From Caryophanales bacterium UBA1231 (GTDB lineage: Bacteria; Bacillota_I; Bacilli_A; ML615J-28; CAG-313), in contig DBWT01000012.1 in assembly GCA_002309035.1 (NCBI GenBank), positions 1 through 11,547 on the forward strand: a stretch of 11,547 nucleotides of DNA. Direction: 5' to 3'. Both the position numbers and the translations under genes were made by a program. Positions 2,376 through 8,799 of the stretch are shown piece by piece (position 1 is the stretch's first letter; the number at the start of each line of letters is the position of its first letter). The notes beneath the pieces were generated by a model. The model was not told where the DNA came from, searched no databases, and worked only from the letters and a program-made list of their open reading frames with translations.

Positions 2376-3311
2376 CTACTTTTGATATGCTAAAACATCA
2401 TCATGGTATATTAAATATTTTAAATCATATTCTTCACAAAGATTTTCAATATCATCAATTGGCATATTAAAAAATGCTGTGGTTAAGGCATCAATCAATG
2501 CCGCATCTCTACCGATTAAATAAATAGTTGAATAAAGATTCTCACATCGACCTGTCTTTGGATTAATAATATGATGATATAAAGCACCATCAATGGTAGC
2601 ATTTTGTTCATGAATACTTGAACTTCCAATAGCGATGTTTTGAAGATTCAAGATTCTTGTATCATCATATTTCAAGCCCACACGATAATCTTTACCATTT
2701 TTTGAGCCAAGTCCAATCGATGAAGTGCCAGCTGATATTAAATAATTGCTGATGCTATTTATAGCCAAATAGTCAATAACTGTTTGTAAAGCATAGCCTT
2801 TTGCAATCGCACCTAAATCAATTGTGGCAGAACCATTTATTTTGATTCGATTATCGATAATTTCAATTGATGAATTATTGATATTCTCAAATTCTTCACT
2901 AACTCTATCGAGTGAACTTGTGTCTTTCGTTTCAATAATCTCTTTATAGATATCACTTAAATTACCAACAAGAATGTTAAAATAACCATTTGTTAACTGT
3001 TGATAATAAAGACTATCCTTTATTAATTTGATAAGCACTTCATCTACTTCAACAAATTCATCGCTATGATTAATTGTATAGACATTATTACAATCTTTCT
3101 GATTATAACGATCTGAAAGGTCTGAATATGTTTTGAAAAGACAAACAATGTCATCATAAATAGTATCTGCTTCATCTTTTGGAGCGTCAAAAGAAATAGA
3201 AATCGTCGTGTTAAAAGCAATGATGATACCACTTTTATTATATAATGAATTACAACTAAATAGTAAAAAGAATGATAAAAAGAGTGTAACAATCATTATT
3301 CCTTTTTTCAT
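2376..3311 (-). CDS. apbE: ApbE-family FAD:protein FMN transferase (lipoprotein)
   Basis: A 311-residue flavin transferase that uses FAD to attach FMN to a Thr of target proteins on the outer face of the membrane; RnfG and RnfD encoded upstream are the natural substrates. I place the start at 3311 rather than the longer in-frame ATG at 3362. AAGGAAG lies about seven bases upstream of it, and it yields a signal peptide with lipobox LFSC (lipid Cys20). Motifs: DLGAIAKGYA (165-174), HHIINPKTG (246-254), and the Mg-binding D274-x3-T278 in IDALTTAF. The conserved GG-N/D loop is replaced by SAGTSS (193-198), an oddity shared with some lipoprotein-type members as far as I recall. The length is normal for the family. 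It is followed by NusG-II and Gx-transporter genes and has a likely own promoter at 3333-3361. Confidence 0.92.
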   Translation of the reverse strand: MKKGIMIVTLFLSFFLLFSCNSLYNKSGIIIAFNTTISISFDAPKDEADTIYDDIVCLFKTYSDLSDRYNQKDCNNVYTINHSDEFVEVDEVLIKLIKDSLYYQQLTNGYFNILVGNLSDIYKEIIETKDTSSLDRVSEEFENINNSSIEIIDNRIKINGSATIDLGAIAKGYALQTVIDYLAINSISNYLISAGTSSIGLGSKNGKDYRVGLKYDDTRILNLQNIAIGSSSIHEQNATIDGALYHHIINPKTGRCENLYSTIYLIGRDAALIDALTTAFFNMPIDDIENLCEEYDLKYLIYHDDVLAYQK

Positions 3312-3332
3312 AAAACACTTCCTTATATTAAT

Positions 3333-3361
3333 AATATACCATAAAATAAGAAATATTGCCA
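3333..3361 (-). promoter_or_regulatory. Likely internal promoter for apbE and the two downstream genes
   Basis: On the minus strand TGGCAA (3356-3361) and TATATT (3333-3338) are separated by 17 bases, with TGG directly before the -10 (extended -10). This matches the layout of the other promoters in the window. The -35 lies in the distal arm of the hairpin at 3353-3382. A leader of about 20 bases would carry the apbE SD. The -35 is one mismatch from the TTGCAA seen at nuoE, so confidence is moderate. Confidence 0.5.
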
Positions 3362-3382
3362 TAGATTAATCTATGACAATAT
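3340..3382 (-). terminator. Hairpin between rnfB and apbE, probable partial terminator
   Basis: Positions 3353-3366 pair with 3369-3382. The only mismatch becomes a U-G wobble when read as minus-strand RNA, so the stem is complete on the transcribed strand. It is followed by an interrupted T-rich tract (TTTCTTATTTTAT). The stem is AT-rich and the U-tract is imperfect. I expect incomplete termination that lowers apbE expression relative to rnf, or an mRNA-processing or stabilising hairpin. Confidence 0.5.
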
Positions 3383-3388
3383 CCTCTA

Positions 3389-3709
3389 TTAGAATTTTAC
3401 TTTGATTGTTGTACCATTTTCATCTGGATGTGATTCCAAATATTCTTTAATTAATTTGTAATTTGTCTCAGGTTTACCAGGTTTACAACGATTTAAATCA
3501 TCTACTTCGCCTTTAACGATGGCTTCAGCAAACCCTTGGCATCCCGCAAATCCACAGGCACCACAATTATAATTTGGAAGAAGCTTTTTAACATCTTCAA
3601 TTCTTGTATCAACTTTAACATAAAACACTTTACTAGCAATTGCTAGAATAACACCAAAACATAAGCCTAATGCACCAAGAATCAGAAAAGACCAAAGAAT
3701 AGTAATCAT
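3389..3709 (-). CDS. rnfB: RnfB-like subunit, minimal form: membrane helix plus one 4Fe-4S domain, no ferredoxin domain
   Basis: Only 106 residues, against roughly 190 (RsxB of E. coli) to 270-330 (Clostridia) for typical RnfB. One N-terminal helix (about 4-27) is followed by the RnfB/CDH-type Fe-S domain (Pfam PF04060) with C49-x2-C52-x4-C57 and C75, all in place in NCGACGFAGC and the following NRCKPG. The frame then ends after about 30 residues. The two or more CxxCxxCxxxCP ferredoxin-type clusters that normally accept electrons from ferredoxin are absent, and the 77 bases before apbE leave no room for them, so this is not a simple frameshift. It sits last in the rnfCDGEA-x-B order. Its ATG overlaps the stop of the 61-residue gene (TAATG), with AAGGAAAGG as SD. 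Electron entry may rely on another protein. Confidence 0.85.
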   Translation of the reverse strand: MITILWSFLILGALGLCFGVILAIASKVFYVKVDTRIEDVKKLLPNYNCGACGFAGCQGFAEAIVKGEVDDLNRCKPGKPETNYKLIKEYLESHPDENGTTIKVKF

Positions 3710-3894
3710 TATTTATTTTCCTTTCCTTGATATTCACAAAGCGTGTTTTTACAATGTGAACAATGTTCATTTAATTGTTTTTCACAACCTTTAGGAATAG
3801 GTGTTCTTTTATTCATTACATAGGTTGCGAAAAAGATGACAATTAATAATATTAAAACTATTAAAGCAATAATAATATAAAATACTTGATCCAT
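3709..3894 (-). CDS. Small cysteine-rich single-helix membrane protein inserted in the rnf operon
   Basis: A 61-residue protein that I do not recognise as a named family. Residues 4-26 form one very hydrophobic helix, followed by a positively charged stretch (NKRTPIPK) that predicts a cytoplasmic C-terminus. The tail carries four cysteines, C37-x7-C45-x2-C48-x4-C53. The C-x2-C-x4-C part has the same spacing as the cluster motif of the neighbouring RnfB, so an Fe-S (or metal) site is plausible. It lies between rnfA and rnfB, where canonical rnfCDGEAB operons have no gene. It is joined to both by one-base TAATG overlaps, which argues strongly that it is translated with the complex. The SD is weak, so translation likely depends on coupling from rnfA. 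An accessory or split cluster-carrying Rnf subunit is my inference; FeoB-associated Cys-rich proteins have a similar layout but no feoB is present. Confidence 0.75.
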   Translation of the reverse strand: MDQVFYIIIALIVLILLIVIFFATYVMNKRTPIPKGCEKQLNEHCSHCKNTLCEYQGKENK

Positions 3895-4481
3895 TAGATA
3901 TTAATCATTCCACTTAAGCCTAAGAATGCTAAACTCATAAGAGCAGCAGTAATTAATGCGATAGGAATACCTTTCATACATTTTGGTAAATTTGATGCCT
4001 CTAGGCGTGTTCTAATACAAGAGAATGTAAAGATGATTAGTAAGAAACCAAGTGATGTACCAATAGCATTAGCCATTGCTTGTGAGAAAGTATAAGCCAT
4101 ATCAGTATTTCCTTGAGCTACACCTAAAACTGCACAATTAGTTGTAATTAAAGGTAGATAAACACCAAGTGCTTTATATAAAGATGGTGAATACTTTTTA
4201 ATTACCATTTCAACAAATTGAACTAGTGATGCAATAACAAGAATAAAGGAAATAGTATCCATAAATGGAATACCGGCTTTTACTAAAACAAAATTATAAA
4301 GTGGCCAAGTAATTAAAGTAGCTAAGACAATAACAAATGTAACAGCAAGTCCCATGCCAAACGCAGATGATGTCTTTTTTGAAACACCTAAAAATGGACA
4401 AATACCATAGAAACGAGACAATATTACATTATCCATTAAAATACCATTAACAATTGCAAGAATAAAGACAACAATTTTCAT
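3894..4481 (-). CDS. rnfA: RnfA, integral membrane subunit of the Rnf electron transport complex
   Basis: A 195-residue membrane protein of the RnfA/NqrE family, of normal length, with about six helices. The two half-helix motifs that hold the intramembrane [2Fe-2S] cluster shared with RnfE are intact: SRFYGICPFLG with C28 and TTNCAVLGV with C116. RnfA and RnfE are inverted-topology homologues at the core of the ion-translocating complex and move electrons across the membrane between the cytoplasmic RnfB/RnfC side and the extracytoplasmic RnfG flavin. The start at 4481 overlaps the rnfE stop (TAATG), with GGAGGTGA placed inside the final rnfE codons. The stop overlaps the start of the 61-residue gene. 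Confidence 0.97.
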   Translation of the reverse strand: MKIVVFILAIVNGILMDNVILSRFYGICPFLGVSKKTSSAFGMGLAVTFVIVLATLITWPLYNFVLVKAGIPFMDTISFILVIASLVQFVEMVIKKYSPSLYKALGVYLPLITTNCAVLGVAQGNTDMAYTFSQAMANAIGTSLGFLLIIFTFSCIRTRLEASNLPKCMKGIPIALITAALMSLAFLGLSGMINI

Positions 4482-5191
4482 TATTTGTCACCTCCTGCAC
4501 TTACTGTTTGTTTTGCTTTAGCAAGCTTTTCTTGTTTAAGTAAAAACTGCTTTTTATCTTCTTTTCGGTTTTTAATTGCTGCAACCACCGCAAGCACTAA
4601 ACCTAAAGTCAAGAAGCCACCAGCAGGTAGTGTGAAAAGCGATATAGCATATCGTTTTAATGGAACAAATGATACTTTTGGTAGGAATGGTAAAACAACA
4701 CCAAATGAGAAACCACCAGTACCCAATAGTTCACGGATAAATGCGATTAAAACAATTGCCATTGTATAACCAATGCCCATACCTAAAGCATCGATCAATG
4801 ATTCAAATGGATTGTGTTTTGATGCATATGCTTCAGCACGACCAAGAACAATACAGTTAACAACAATAAGTGAAATAAATACACCAAGTGTTGCATATAA
4901 ATCAGGTAAGAATGCTTGTGATAGCATCTTTACGATTGTTACGAACGTTGCGATAACAACTATATACATTGGTATTTTAACTTCTTCAGGTGTAATTTTA
5001 CGAAGAAGAGAAATAAAAATGTTAGAACAAATCAATACAAACATGAATAGCAAACCCATTCCAAGGGCAGATTCAATTGATTTTGTTGTCGCAAGCGCCG
5101 GACAAGTCCCAAGTAAAGAGACAAACAATGGATTTTCAACAATTATGCCTTTAGTAAAATTTTTCCATGTAGATACTTTTTCACCATCCAT
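4481..5191 (-). CDS. rnfE: RnfE, integral membrane subunit of the Rnf complex
   Basis: A 236-residue member of the RnfE/NqrD family, homologous to RnfA and opposite in topology. The cluster-binding cysteines are C30 (LLGTCPALATT) and C113 (VNCIVLGRAEA). About six membrane helices are visible, followed by a Lys-rich cytoplasmic tail (about 205-236) typical of Firmicute RnfE. Together with RnfA it forms the membrane channel and the [2Fe-2S] relay of the ion pump. The start is set by AAGGAGGTG inside the last codons of rnfG and a TAATG overlap. No defects are seen. Long plus-strand open frames opposite this gene are shadows of its sequence. Confidence 0.97.
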   Translation of the reverse strand: MDGEKVSTWKNFTKGIIVENPLFVSLLGTCPALATTKSIESALGMGLLFMFVLICSNIFISLLRKITPEEVKIPMYIVVIATFVTIVKMLSQAFLPDLYATLGVFISLIVVNCIVLGRAEAYASKHNPFESLIDALGMGIGYTMAIVLIAFIRELLGTGGFSFGVVLPFLPKVSFVPLKRYAISLFTLPAGGFLTLGLVLAVVAAIKNRKEDKKQFLLKQEKLAKAKQTVSAGGDK

Positions 5192-5730
5192 TATTCCACC
5201 TCCTTATAATTGTCCACAAAATGTTTAAGTGCGGTTTGAACTAATTCTTTAATCAATTTAGCACCATAGGTTGCACCACACTTCACATCAATGCCTTCAA
5301 TTAATGAATTATCTAGACCATCTTTTTGATAATTTGTTGTCAAATGTTCATCAACTGTCGATGCAAAGCTTTCAGTATTTTCAATAAATACAACATTTTT
5401 CGTTGTGCCATTAGGATTAACGCCAACTAATAATGTGATTTTACCATATGCATTTTTACCACTAACTTTGTAAACATATCCAATTGTATGATCATCTTTA
5501 ATAGCTTTAGATACTTTTAAAATCGTTTCATCTTGATAATCTAAAGCAATAAATTCAGCATCTTGATATACTTCTTGAAGTTTCTTTTGTTCAAGTTTTA
5601 TTTCATTTTCTTTAATTCTAGGTTCAGTGAACATATTCAAGCAAACAATTAATGCACCTGAAAGGCCAGCAACAATCATTAAAGTTATTGCAATCATGAA
5701 CACTTTTTTAAGACTTAATTTATTTTCCAT
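5191..5730 (-). CDS. rnfG: RnfG, flavoprotein subunit of the Rnf complex with covalent-FMN site
   Basis: A 179-residue protein with one N-terminal membrane helix (about 9-33) and an extracytoplasmic FMN_bind domain. ApbE attaches FMN to the Thr of a D-x-x-(S/T)-(G/S)-A-T motif. Here this reads DVKCGAT (148-154), so the acceptor Thr154 and the Asp are present while the usual Ser/Thr is Cys151. The domain also shows GITLLVGVNPNG-like strands (residues about 96-108, KITLLVGVNPNG) common to the family. RnfG passes electrons between the membrane [2Fe-2S] and the RnfD flavin. The ATG follows the rnfD stop by seven bases, with AGGAGG overlapping that stop codon. The length is slightly short of the usual 190-210 but nothing essential seems lost. 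Confidence 0.95.
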   Translation of the reverse strand: MENKLSLKKVFMIAITLMIVAGLSGALIVCLNMFTEPRIKENEIKLEQKKLQEVYQDAEFIALDYQDETILKVSKAIKDDHTIGYVYKVSGKNAYGKITLLVGVNPNGTTKNVVFIENTESFASTVDEHLTTNYQKDGLDNSLIEGIDVKCGATYGAKLIKELVQTALKHFVDNYKEVE

Positions 5731-5739
5731 ATAAGCCTC

Positions 5740-6804
5740 CTAATGTGTTACTAAGACAACAACAATAGCTAAAGCCATGATGATGCCCCAGAACAAAAAG
5801 TGTTTCCAAGTGTATTTACTATTACTGAAACGTGGATAATCGATAACAGGTACAAACATATTTGCAATTATTATCGCAAAAGCAACACCTTCAGGATATG
5901 CTCCATATAAACGAATAAATGCAGATATTAAACCAATTAAAATACCAAATGTAACTCTTCCCGGTTTAGTAGTAGGACTTGTGATAGGGTCTGTTGCCAT
6001 GAAGACAGCACCAAATAACAATCCACCAGCTAATGTTTGATAAAGCATATACATAAATGGATTAACGCCTTCAATTTTCAAACCAACGAAAAGCATGATA
6101 ACCATGAATGATAATATCATCGCAAGCATTGGTCTGAAATCAGCTGATTTACGGATTAATAAATATCCACCACCAATGATGATTGCAATCTTATTAACTT
6201 CACCCATTGAACCAGGAATTGTGCCAATAAATAAATTCTTAATTGCTTCCCAAGTAAAGATATTTTGAACAAGTGGTGTTCCACCAGCAAAAATATCAAC
6301 ACTTGAGCCAAGTGAATTAATCGATAAATATTTAAATCCTACACCAAAGCAAATCATTGCGAAAACTCTACCGACAGCTGCAGGATTAAAAATGTTACCA
6401 CCTAATCCACCAAATACTAATTTACCAACAACAATACCAAATAATGCGCCAACTAAAACAATATACCAACTAACTTCAGCAGGCATAATTAATGCAAAGA
6501 TAATTGCACTAATTAATGGTGCAGTAATGTTATTGATTGTCATTTTGCTAAATGTATTTTTGAAGATTGTTTTTAGTGTTCTTCTTTCACCATTATAAGG
6601 TTCTTGCATTGTCAAAAGGCAAAAAACAAATTCAGCAAGAAGCATTGTGATAATTGATATTCCTAATACTTTAACTGCTTTAAATTGATATTGGACAATT
6701 GCCATTATCGTTACTGGAATTAAAGCAATTAAAACATCAATCATCATTCTCTTAACAGACGAGGCTTTATGAATATGAGGACTATTTTCTTTGATTATTT
6801 TCAT
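5740..6804 (-). CDS. rnfD: RnfD, integral membrane flavoprotein subunit of the Rnf complex
   Basis: The ATG at 6804 (354 residues) is preferred over the in-frame GTG at 6813, because AGGTGAT just upstream of 6804 is a proper SD and the GTG forms part of it. RnfD/NqrB family: about ten helices, the GGLGGNIFNPAAVGR motif (134-148) and FMATDPITSPTTKPGR (268-283) are intact. The covalent FMN site, usually D-x-x-S-G-A-T-P-L, reads DIFAGGTPL (170-178). The acceptor Thr176 stays, but Ser becomes Ala and Ala becomes Gly, so this is a degenerate ApbE site. RnfD contributes to ion translocation and accepts electrons near RnfG. It follows rnfC by nine bases in the same operon. Confidence 0.95.
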   Translation of the reverse strand: MKIIKENSPHIHKASSVKRMMIDVLIALIPVTIMAIVQYQFKAVKVLGISIITMLLAEFVFCLLTMQEPYNGERRTLKTIFKNTFSKMTINNITAPLISAIIFALIMPAEVSWYIVLVGALFGIVVGKLVFGGLGGNIFNPAAVGRVFAMICFGVGFKYLSINSLGSSVDIFAGGTPLVQNIFTWEAIKNLFIGTIPGSMGEVNKIAIIIGGGYLLIRKSADFRPMLAMILSFMVIMLFVGLKIEGVNPFMYMLYQTLAGGLLFGAVFMATDPITSPTTKPGRVTFGILIGLISAFIRLYGAYPEGVAFAIIIANMFVPVIDYPRFSNSKYTWKHFLFWGIIMALAIVVVLVTH

Positions 6805-6813
6805 TACTATCAC

Positions 6814-8112
6814 CTATTTAATCAATTTCTTAGCCTTTCTCATAAATTCTGTCACTGGTATTTTCGAAGTACATGAATATGAACATAATCCACATTCAAT
6901 ACAACGGTTGACATTTAAACGTTTAAGAGATTCTTTATCACCTGCTTTATAAGCATTCATAATATTAACAGGTTGTAAACCGACAGGACAAGAATAAACA
7001 CATGAAGCGCATCTAACACAAGGTTCTTCTTTTTGTGGAATATGATCTAAAACAATAACTGATGTACATGTTTTAGTAATAATAGCATCATCTCTAACAA
7101 GCGATGCTCCCATCATTGGACCACCCATAATAAATACTTTATCAACATCTGGATGAACATAACCACCACATAATTCAATTAATTCTTGAACTGGTGTTCC
7201 AACTCTTACTCTAAAGTTTTGAGGAAGTTTAATACCATCACCTGTTAAAGTAAAATGTCTTTTAACAACAGGAAGATTATATTTTATGGCTTTATAAATA
7301 CCAACCATTGTGGCAACATTAAAGTTCATAATGCCATATTTAGATGGAAGTGTTCCACTCTTAACATTGATGCCTAAGCAACTCTTGATCATAGCAATTT
7401 CCCAACCTTGTGGATAATAATTACCTACAGGTTTGACTTCAACTGGAAGATCAGGATATCTTTCCTTAACAGCATTCATAACGTCAATTAAGTCATCATG
7501 TTTTTTCTTAATACAAATAAAGGCTTTTTCCGCTTTAAATGCTTGTAAACAATACTTAATACCCATCATAATACGATCAGGCATTTCCATCATTAAACGA
7601 TAATCACTAGTTAAATAAGGTTCACATTCGATACCATTAATCAAAATGTATTTAATAGGATCTTTTGTTTGAAACTTAATATATGTTGGAAATGAGCTAC
7701 CACCAAGGCCAACCATTGCACAATCTTTAACGATTTGTGTCATATCATCTTTCGTAAGTTTAGCTATTTCTTCTTCTGTTCTTTCATGAATTGAAGGATC
7801 AAAAGTATTTTGCATATCATTTTTGATTTGAATGAAATCAGTTAATTTGCCACTACGATGGAATTTCTTAACAGTTCCAACAATTGTTCCACTAACTGTA
7901 GAATGAATTGGTTGTTCAAAAAAACCACCATGACGCATACCAATTACAGTACCAACCTTAACATAATCACCTGGTTTACAATAAACATCAGCTGTTGCAC
8001 ATCTGGCATTGGCGACAGCTATATAAACATATTCAGGATCAACATATCTAATTGTTGGTAAATCTTTTGTTAATTTACGGATATCATCAATTCCTTTAGT
8101 TTTCGCAATCAT
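6814..8112 (-). CDS. rnfC: RnfC, NADH-binding Fe-S/FMN subunit of the Rnf complex
   Basis: A 432-residue peripheral cytoplasmic subunit where NAD+ is reduced or NADH oxidised on FMN. Order: RnfC N-terminal barrel-sandwich domain (about 1-100); the FMN/NADH-binding complex-I 51-kDa-like domain with GLGGSSFPTYIKF (136-148) and INGIECEPYLTSDYRLM (159-175); an SLBB segment (about 285-330); and two [4Fe-4S] motifs, CVRCASCVYSCP (364-375) and CIECGLCSYSCTSKIP (403-418). The length is normal for Gram-positive RnfC, without the long Ala/Lys-rich tail of the proteobacterial protein. It is the first gene of the operon; CGGAG lies seven bases before the ATG, and a strong promoter is found at 8145-8173. 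With RnfB shortened, RnfC and the 61-residue protein are the main cytoplasmic cluster carriers encoded here. Confidence 0.97.
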   Translation of the reverse strand: MIAKTKGIDDIRKLTKDLPTIRYVDPEYVYIAVANARCATADVYCKPGDYVKVGTVIGMRHGGFFEQPIHSTVSGTIVGTVKKFHRSGKLTDFIQIKNDMQNTFDPSIHERTEEEIAKLTKDDMTQIVKDCAMVGLGGSSFPTYIKFQTKDPIKYILINGIECEPYLTSDYRLMMEMPDRIMMGIKYCLQAFKAEKAFICIKKKHDDLIDVMNAVKERYPDLPVEVKPVGNYYPQGWEIAMIKSCLGINVKSGTLPSKYGIMNFNVATMVGIYKAIKYNLPVVKRHFTLTGDGIKLPQNFRVRVGTPVQELIELCGGYVHPDVDKVFIMGGPMMGASLVRDDAIITKTCTSVIVLDHIPQKEEPCVRCASCVYSCPVGLQPVNIMNAYKAGDKESLKRLNVNRCIECGLCSYSCTSKIPVTEFMRKAKKLIK

Positions 8113-8282: not shown

Positions 8283-8799
8283 TTTGACACTATTACTTAC
8301 CCGTAAACGGGTCCTTGTATTCTTTCAAACTTCGTTTGTCCGAAATTTGATCTTCCATTTCTTGATTGCGAATGTAATTTTCAACAGTCTTCTTATTCAA
8401 TCCGACTGTTGAAACATAATACCCTTCCGCCCAAAAATTTCTGTTTCCATACTTATATTTCATATTCGAATGTTCCTCAAATATCATCAATGAACTCTTT
8501 CCTTTCAAGTATCCCATAAATGAGGAAACAGCCATTTTTGGCGGTATCTTGACAAGCATGTGTATGTGATCGCTCATTGCATGAGCTTCCACTATTTCGA
8601 CTCCTTTGTATTCACATAATCGTCTTAAATATCTTCCTATATCTGCTCTTAGTTTTCCATATATCGCTTTTCTGCGATATTTTGGACAAAATACTATATG
8701 ATATTGACAATTCCACTTTGTATGTGATAAACTTGATGTATCATCATTTCTTTTTGACATGATGTATTCTTCTCCTTTCTGTGTTGTTTGGCAATTGGC
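8273..8799. repeat. 10-bp inverted repeat flanking tnpA
   Basis: GCCAATTGCC at 8273-8282 is the exact reverse complement of GGCAATTGGC at 8790-8799. The arms bracket the tnpA gene 10 bases beyond the stop and 29 bases before the start. In the tnpA mRNA they could pair the 5' leader, near the SD, with the 3' region. Confidence 0.6.
8293..8760 (-). CDS. tnpA: IS200/IS605-family transposase TnpA (HUH/Y1 type)
   Basis: A 155-residue single-tyrosine HUH transposase of normal IS200 length that cuts and rejoins single-stranded DNA at hairpin ends. The HUH metal motif is H65-I-H67 (in SDHIHMLV) and the catalytic Tyr is Y129 in TVENYIRNQ, with the helper Q133 present. The N-terminal WNCQYHIVFCPKYRRK stretch (16-31) is the usual family signature. 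All key residues are intact and the frame is unbroken, so the enzyme may be active. GC content and codon choice are visibly higher in GC than in the neighbouring genes, consistent with transfer. The SD (AAAGGAG) sits 11 bases before the ATG, an unusually long spacing that fits the low, post-transcriptionally limited expression known for IS200. An extended -10 lies at 8806-8814. Confidence 0.95.
   Translation of the reverse strand: MSKRNDDTSSLSHTKWNCQYHIVFCPKYRRKAIYGKLRADIGRYLRRLCEYKGVEIVEAHAMSDHIHMLVKIPPKMAVSSFMGYLKGKSSLMIFEEHSNMKYKYGNRNFWAEGYYVSTVGLNKKTVENYIRNQEMEDQISDKRSLKEYKDPFTGK

Follow-up and report, generated by a model that had tools for sequence, protein, structure and literature searches.

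A conserved cysteine-rich microprotein encoded between rnfA and a short rnfB probably belongs to Rnf complexes whose RnfB has no ferredoxin domain

Many anaerobes have the ion pump Rnf, whose electrons are thought to enter through RnfB, whose C-terminal domain accepts them from ferredoxin (PMC12174285, in the part available). An rnf operon in which this domain is missing and a small cysteine-rich protein is encoded beside the shortened RnfB raises the question of what that protein does. The window (the whole 11,547-nucleotide stretch analysed, contig DBWT01000012.1 of Caryophanales bacterium UBA1231) carries on its minus strand the order rnfC-D-G-E-A, microprotein gene, rnfB, apbE, a NusG_II-domain gene and a gene for heptaprenyl diphosphate synthase component I, and has all six Rnf genes C, D, G, E, A and B, with rnfG only below the TIGR01947 cut-off (Table 1). 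The cysteine pairs of RnfA and RnfE we take to be the ligands of the cluster. This assignment is in line with the available part of PMC12174285. A canonical Rnf includes an RnfB with a ferredoxin domain; the only Pfam match in the 106 residues of the window RnfB is PF04060, and TIGR01944 is covered at positions 4-89 of 190. Since a terminator-like hairpin (a consensus match only) follows rnfB and precedes apbE, the microprotein ORF would belong to the rnf transcription unit. Downstream of the rnf region lies a NuoE-like [2Fe-2S] thioredoxin-fold gene (PF01257; 665-1150), as it does in loci L001, L011 and L013. A scan of viral contigs using RnfA gave no matches. Directly upstream of rnfC, a 155-aa ORF (8293-8760), read by eye, is presumably an IS200/IS605-type transposase.

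Table 1. Features of the rnf region in the window.
Feature	Coordinates	Strand	Remarks
rnfC	6814..8112	-	432 aa; TIGR01945 above cut-off
rnfD	5740..6813	-	357 aa; PF03116
rnfG	5191..5730	-	179 aa; TIGR01947 37.5 bits, under its cut-off of 102
rnfE	4481..5191	-	236 aa; C30 and C113 at expected cluster positions
rnfA	3894..4481	-	195 aa; C28 and C116 at expected cluster positions
microprotein gene	3709..3894	-	61 aa; predicted helix 3-30; tail with C37, C45, C48, C53
short rnfB	3389..3709	-	106 aa; one helix and one FeS domain (PF04060); no ferredoxin domain
terminator-like hairpin, rnfB/apbE gap	3351..3384	-	consensus match only: 1 found vs 0.4 expected
apbE (flavin transferase of Rnf flavoproteins)	2376..3362	-	PF02424

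The microprotein ORF starts with ATG, and both of its junctions read TAATG, with one base shared with rnfA and one with rnfB. Its product has the cysteine pattern C37-x7-C45-x2-C48-x4-C53, and the window RnfB carries C49-x2-C52-x4-C57. AlphaFold2 predicts a single helix at residues 3-30 (pLDDT at least 90 at 24 residues) and an unstructured tail (about 55-60, with 40 at the final residue). The tail is probably cytoplasmic because K/R directly follow the helix. The first-pass annotation had described an extra 61-residue cysteine-rich ORF that overlaps both neighbours by one base, with one helix, a cysteine spacing shared with the RnfB cluster motif and a shortened RnfB next to it, and each of these points was borne out. 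No Pfam or NCBIfam model reached its cut-off on the window protein, PADLOC gave no match, and a homologue search with the single sequence recovered only the window's own protein. A PDB search with the family found nothing beyond chance, with four weak helix or peptide matches (E of at least 0.23).

To place the ORF among relatives, loci were drawn from a contig scan with an alignment of 23 of 44 RnfB homologues (from a length-limited search), and the best 80 of 536 loci were taken. Of these best 80, 79 carry a comparable ORF in the rnfA-rnfB interval (L016 by eye; L056 has none), a recurrence that makes the ORF more than chance. Cultured carriers include Anaeroplasma bactoclasticum (L073) and Peloplasma aerotolerans (L021). 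Alignment of 78 of these loci with the window has C45 and C48 in 79/79 sequences, C53 in 78, P34 in 76 and C37 in 68; alignment A2, on which the later Pfam counts rest, holds 77 of the 80 sequences, three near-copies being omitted. Motifs were counted in 128 distinct rnfB-adjacent strings, among which near-duplicates remain and start points vary, and in 30 standalone strings. CxxC is present in every string and C-x2-C-x4-C in 107/128 adjacent and 29/30 standalone strings, and the upstream cysteine is found in 104 and 14 and missing in 24 and 16, respectively; among the adjacent strings the third spacing is other than 4 in 20 and the third cysteine is absent in one. A protein database yielded 132 relatives, and among the 120 listed the source names, where given, are nearly all 'hypothetical protein'. 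The microprotein represents a real coding family that has had no name so far and whose cysteines are conserved. In our literature search we recognised no description of a small cysteine protein in rnf operons, nor of an RnfB without ferredoxin domain, and the part of PMC4014512 that gives known rnf gene orders mentions no extra gene between A and B. The expected conservation of the gene position in relatives therefore held in 79 of the best 80 loci. For the four cysteines it held for CxxC and the third cysteine but not for the upstream one, and the claim that nothing canonically stands between A and B is true of the ferredoxin-type operons read but not of this bacterial group, where the extra gene is common.

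The family extends beyond these loci. Among 60 sampled Fusobacteriia genomes, three, including that of L080, are arranged rnfE-rnfA-micro-short rnfB-apbE; the fourth match in that group is weak and in a different context. In four genomes (G020, by eye, G043, G072 and G119) the rnfA-rnfB gap encodes a helix of 35-45 aa with CxxC and a further cysteine. Such 35-45 residue versions, from small genomes (L310, L311, L312, L254), fall below the reach of the profile.

The link to Rnf was followed through 296 sampled genomes of the class, of which 170 have an RnfA match and 150 a microprotein match (E up to 0.001): both are present in 146, RnfA only in 24, the microprotein only in four (G198, G214, G218, G269) and neither in 122. 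The microprotein profile thus matches 146/170 genomes with an RnfA match vs 4/126 without (Fisher p 1.8e-52, kinship ignored). The 146 include G086, whose helix-only match in a 229-aa frame is no true member, and two weak matches were counted unread (G186, 7.4e-4; G214, 2.1e-4); a clear copy without an RnfA match is present in G198, G218 and G269. We lean more on the relocated copies and the copy numbers than on this genome statistic.

One hundred RnfA regions, fetched from the listed places, were read between rnfA and rnfB. A short RnfB with the ORF in between was found in 54, the ORF with an RnfB of 183-187 aa that has two FeS-type domains (by reading) and no ferredoxin motif in four (L102, L112, L115, L150), and the ORF with no recognised RnfB in two. 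Four regions have a ferredoxin-type RnfB and no ORF between rnfA and rnfB. The remaining 36 were scored as short RnfB without ORF; one of these (L096, from G239) is the fragment of a ferredoxin-type RnfB at a contig end. The 35 other bare short rnfBs represent 34 genomes, and 31 of these have a microprotein match elsewhere. In the RnfA tree, a quick tree with several weak branches, rows with the bare arrangement fall into two groups, one of 33 and a separate one of two, and the three genomes without a match (G232, G258, G272) are single rows scattered within the bare clade, so that their absence would fit incomplete assemblies, a fit that is no proof. ApbE lies within about 2.2 kb downstream in 17/58 adjacent-type, 0/33 bare-type and 0/4 ferredoxin-type regions, which is suggestive only.

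Of the 24 genomes with RnfA only, four have a ferredoxin-type RnfB, ten have no match to the RnfB N-terminus and ten have a short RnfB (G020, G043, G047, G072, G074, G119, G232, G242, G258, G272). No copy was found in six of the sampled short-RnfB genomes (G047, G074, G232, G242, G258, G272). A real copy is missing from five genomes of this class whose RnfB is of the ferredoxin type (G086, G136, G149, G197, G239); in G197 the strongest sub-threshold match (E 0.011) coincides with its FeoB-associated gene. The first-pass annotation had named presence of the gene in operons with full-length RnfB, together with no association with the complex, as evidence against its proposal, and no such presence was seen in the five genomes. 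Its prediction of co-occurrence with short RnfB fared well, including genomes in which the gene is remote from rnf and with copy number mostly following the operons, but not without exception, given the six short-RnfB genomes without a copy and the three copies without an RnfA match. Its interpretation of the protein as a candidate subunit of a split or substituted electron-entry module is supported in part.

Copy numbers were obtained by setting microprotein profile matches against the operons read. Nine genomes have two or three short-RnfB operons read, and copies equal operons in seven (G001, G006, G033, G045, G057, G083, G290), where the second G045 copy is weak (E between 1e-4 and 1e-3); G022 has two copies for three operons (third match E 0.008) and G139 one for two. 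Further RnfA-type pairs in G006, G033, G045, G057, G083 and G174 were left out of the operon counts. G174 has two copies, its second RnfB not being recognised. Two copies 1.5 kb apart accompany one RnfA/RnfE pair in G052, and two copies lie on two contigs in G041; these two genomes either contradict a strict one-to-one rule or owe their counts to assembly.

Where the gene has left the operon, it occupies few places. Among 30 distinct standalone copies read, 17 precede a dCMP deaminase gene and in most cases follow aspS or a ThiF-family gene, and 12 follow a phosphoglucomutase gene and in most cases precede a uracil-DNA glycosylase gene, so that 29/30 fall into two housekeeping sites and only that of G198 lies elsewhere. 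Neighbours at these sites were named by Pfam for one example per site and otherwise from reading translations. Three of the 30 are the copies in genomes without an RnfA match (G198, G218, G269).

Taken together, the microprotein very probably belongs functionally to Rnf. Conservation, position, co-occurrence and copy number argue for dedication to the Rnf type whose RnfB has no ferredoxin domain, and our preferred, still tentative, reading is that it is an accessory of that complex which loads or holds an Fe-S site during assembly. The tail would sit on the cytoplasmic side near the membrane; its C-x2-C-x4-C, often joined by the upstream cysteine, may hold iron or an iron-sulfur cluster, and the tail may serve the electron-entry side of its own complex, meaning the FeS domain of RnfB and/or RnfA/RnfE. 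Its job would be to have the Fe-S site loaded or held while the complex assembles. We consider loading or holding slightly more likely than a relay of electrons because only three cysteines are near-universal, because the third spacing varies in part of the family, because AlphaFold2 predicts no fold for the tail, because the gene has moved to housekeeping sites, and because the similarly built NqrM is needed for cluster insertion in NQR (PMC12174285, available part). Copy-less NQR operons, the six short-RnfB genomes without a copy, G139 and G022 count against the accessory reading.

The alternative that comes closest, and that we regard as only slightly less likely, is a stoichiometric redox subunit with an Fe-S cluster of its own in the tail, through which electrons would pass from soluble ferredoxin to the FeS domain of RnfB or to the RnfA/E cluster, in place of the lost ferredoxin domain. 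Relay is favoured over loading by the strict pairing with a truncated RnfB and by the RnfB-like motif: the C-x2-C-x4-C of most adjacent and nearly all standalone strings equals the spacing of the RnfB FeS motif, the partner RnfB has no ferredoxin domain, and there is roughly one copy per complex. In profile comparison, the family aligns with short RnfB without gaps, from the helix to the third cysteine in the window sequence, with a probability of 87-90%. None of 100 column permutations, a lenient test that here as elsewhere keeps the helix unless stated, was as good, narrowly (35.5 vs 34.2; tail alone 15.8 vs 13.8). Against a relay stand the fourth cysteine, missing in 24/128 adjacent and 16/30 standalone strings, the unstructured tail in the AlphaFold2 model, the distance of the gene from the operon in many genomes and the six short-RnfB genomes in which no copy was found.

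A more specific proposal, which we judge unlikely, is that the microprotein is a shrunken duplicate of the helix-plus-cluster half of RnfB, a mini-RnfB that carries an Fe-S cluster and thereby stands in for the missing ferredoxin domain in a split two-protein entry module; if true, Rnf/NQR pumps would have, besides full RnfB and NqrF, an entry module of a third type. Like the N-terminal half of RnfB (TIGR01944, PF04060), the microprotein has one helix followed by C-x2-C-x4-C at about equal distance, and it is an operon neighbour. Unlike RnfB, it has neither the NCGACG glycines nor a fourth cysteine downstream and only 61 aa, and the window microprotein has no PF04060 or TIGR01944 match. It may descend from RnfB or from an FeoB-associated type, or the likeness may be convergent.

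Returning to the loading of an Fe-S site, a known protein of similar build is NqrM (DUF539, PF04400), the maturation protein of Na+-NQR. Kostyrko 2016 is reportedly a study on NqrM. NqrM is required for cluster insertion into NQR (PMC12174285, available part), and the same source ties it to a Rnf/NQR-type complex. The eight NqrMs that we read have a helix, a basic stretch, a cysteine, CxC or CxxC and a further cysteine at variable distance; the likeness thus lies in a small membrane protein with a cysteine soon after the helix and a cysteine group of variable spacing. That the microprotein is itself an NqrM-type factor, supplying the iron of the [2Fe-2S] cluster that lies within the membrane between RnfA and RnfE, is nevertheless improbable. 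Its build matches, and five genomes (G054, G080, G097, G104, G213) have an operon with RnfE-like and RnfA-like genes without cluster cysteines, with no RnfB or microprotein in the stretches read. However, hhalign against NqrM gives a probability of 12.9% with 17/100 permutations as good, GSCGG is missing, the five ferredoxin-type-RnfB genomes have no real copy, and NQR, whose cluster is of the same kind, is found in genomes without a copy and adds none: genomes with one Rnf of the microprotein-linked type and one NQR have exactly one copy in 7/7 cases (G009, G042, G065, G118, G131, G137, G144; the RnfB motif itself is unrecognised in G118). None of the five genomes in which NQR operons with NqrF were read (G054, G104, G181, G206, G242, the last also carrying a short RnfB) has a microprotein copy. 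Identity with NqrM, which the architecture fits, was rejected on the profile comparison, the missing motif and the lack of an extra copy with NQR; PF04400 is not among the matches of the window, nor among the 25 families listed for the 77 members.

In this Bacilli-related group, the genomes behind the NqrF-bearing NQR operons (L324, L326, L327, L329, L331) have no NqrM (PF04400) match. With the NqrM profile, 0/12 class genomes matched and both NqrM-bearing plasmid control records did. NQR operons without microprotein and without NqrM imply that the intramembrane cluster does not always depend on such a factor. The second rnf-like operons whose RnfE-like and RnfA-like proteins lack the cluster cysteines (L304-L308, L335, L336, L348) have an extra RnfG-like gene, no RnfB in the stretches read, and downstream ApbE-like and, where covered, NusG_II-like genes; such an operon possibly encodes a pump or an electron branch that does without the intramembrane cluster.

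Very doubtful is the reading as an iron-handling protein of the FeoB-associated kind (PF12669) that is only loosely tied to Rnf. The shared build is a helix, a basic stretch and a cysteine tail. Profile similarity to seven FeoB-associated-type sequences exceeds all 100 permutations with and without the helix, Pfam matches across the 77 members, weak and scattered as they are, touch FeoB_associated most often (31/77, best E 0.0015; the best E of all is a helix match to Syndecan, 2.4e-5), and standalone copies exist, three of them without an RnfA match. However, the similarity is largely borne by the helix (permuted tails still have a mean probability of 88%), PF12669 gives the window protein 12.4 bits vs a cut-off of 27, separate PF12669 matches are present in the same genomes (9/20), and the microprotein lies away from feoB in the stretches read and accompanies Rnf (146/170 vs 4/126). 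Identity with this family was set aside, as the standalone copies occupy other sites and the FeoB-type GNPNxGK motif is absent from 31 standalone stretches (30 distinct copies; about 1.7-4.2 kb each). Scarcely probable at all is a purely structural one-helix assembly partner without Fe-S role whose cysteines bind zinc, as CxxC can, or form disulfides; the helix is the only confidently predicted element, but no positions are better conserved than the cysteines, and the protein occurs in the context of an Fe-S complex.

As a Rnf accessory, the microprotein has a parallel in RnfH of the Azotobacter vinelandii Rnf1, likewise an extra Rnf component limited to a lineage; RnfH is cytoplasmic and has no redox cofactor (PMC12174285, available part), unlike the microprotein with its helix and cysteine tail. 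Many Bacilli-related genomes and 3/60 Fusobacteriia have a Rnf without the ferredoxin-accepting domain and have kept a dedicated cysteine microprotein, which may be an overlooked working part or a dedicated builder of Rnf and is an example of the small components that annotation overlooks. If it loads or carries a cluster, it would show how little the entry point needs, and both ferredoxin docking and cluster loading in Rnf would become directly testable.

The operons themselves vary in further ways. A TSCPD-domain gene directly follows the short rnfB in L315 (1097-1354, PF12637) and, by reading, in L316, L317 and L332, with a MetK-like gene next wherever the stretch extends far enough. Four loci (L035, L038, L039, L064) have very large RnfG ORFs of 1353-1555 aa vs about 180 aa. 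In Acholeplasma-like operons (L008, L010, L015, L020, L021, L028, L060), RnfG has about 320 aa and roughly 1 kb extra lies between rnfG and rnfE.
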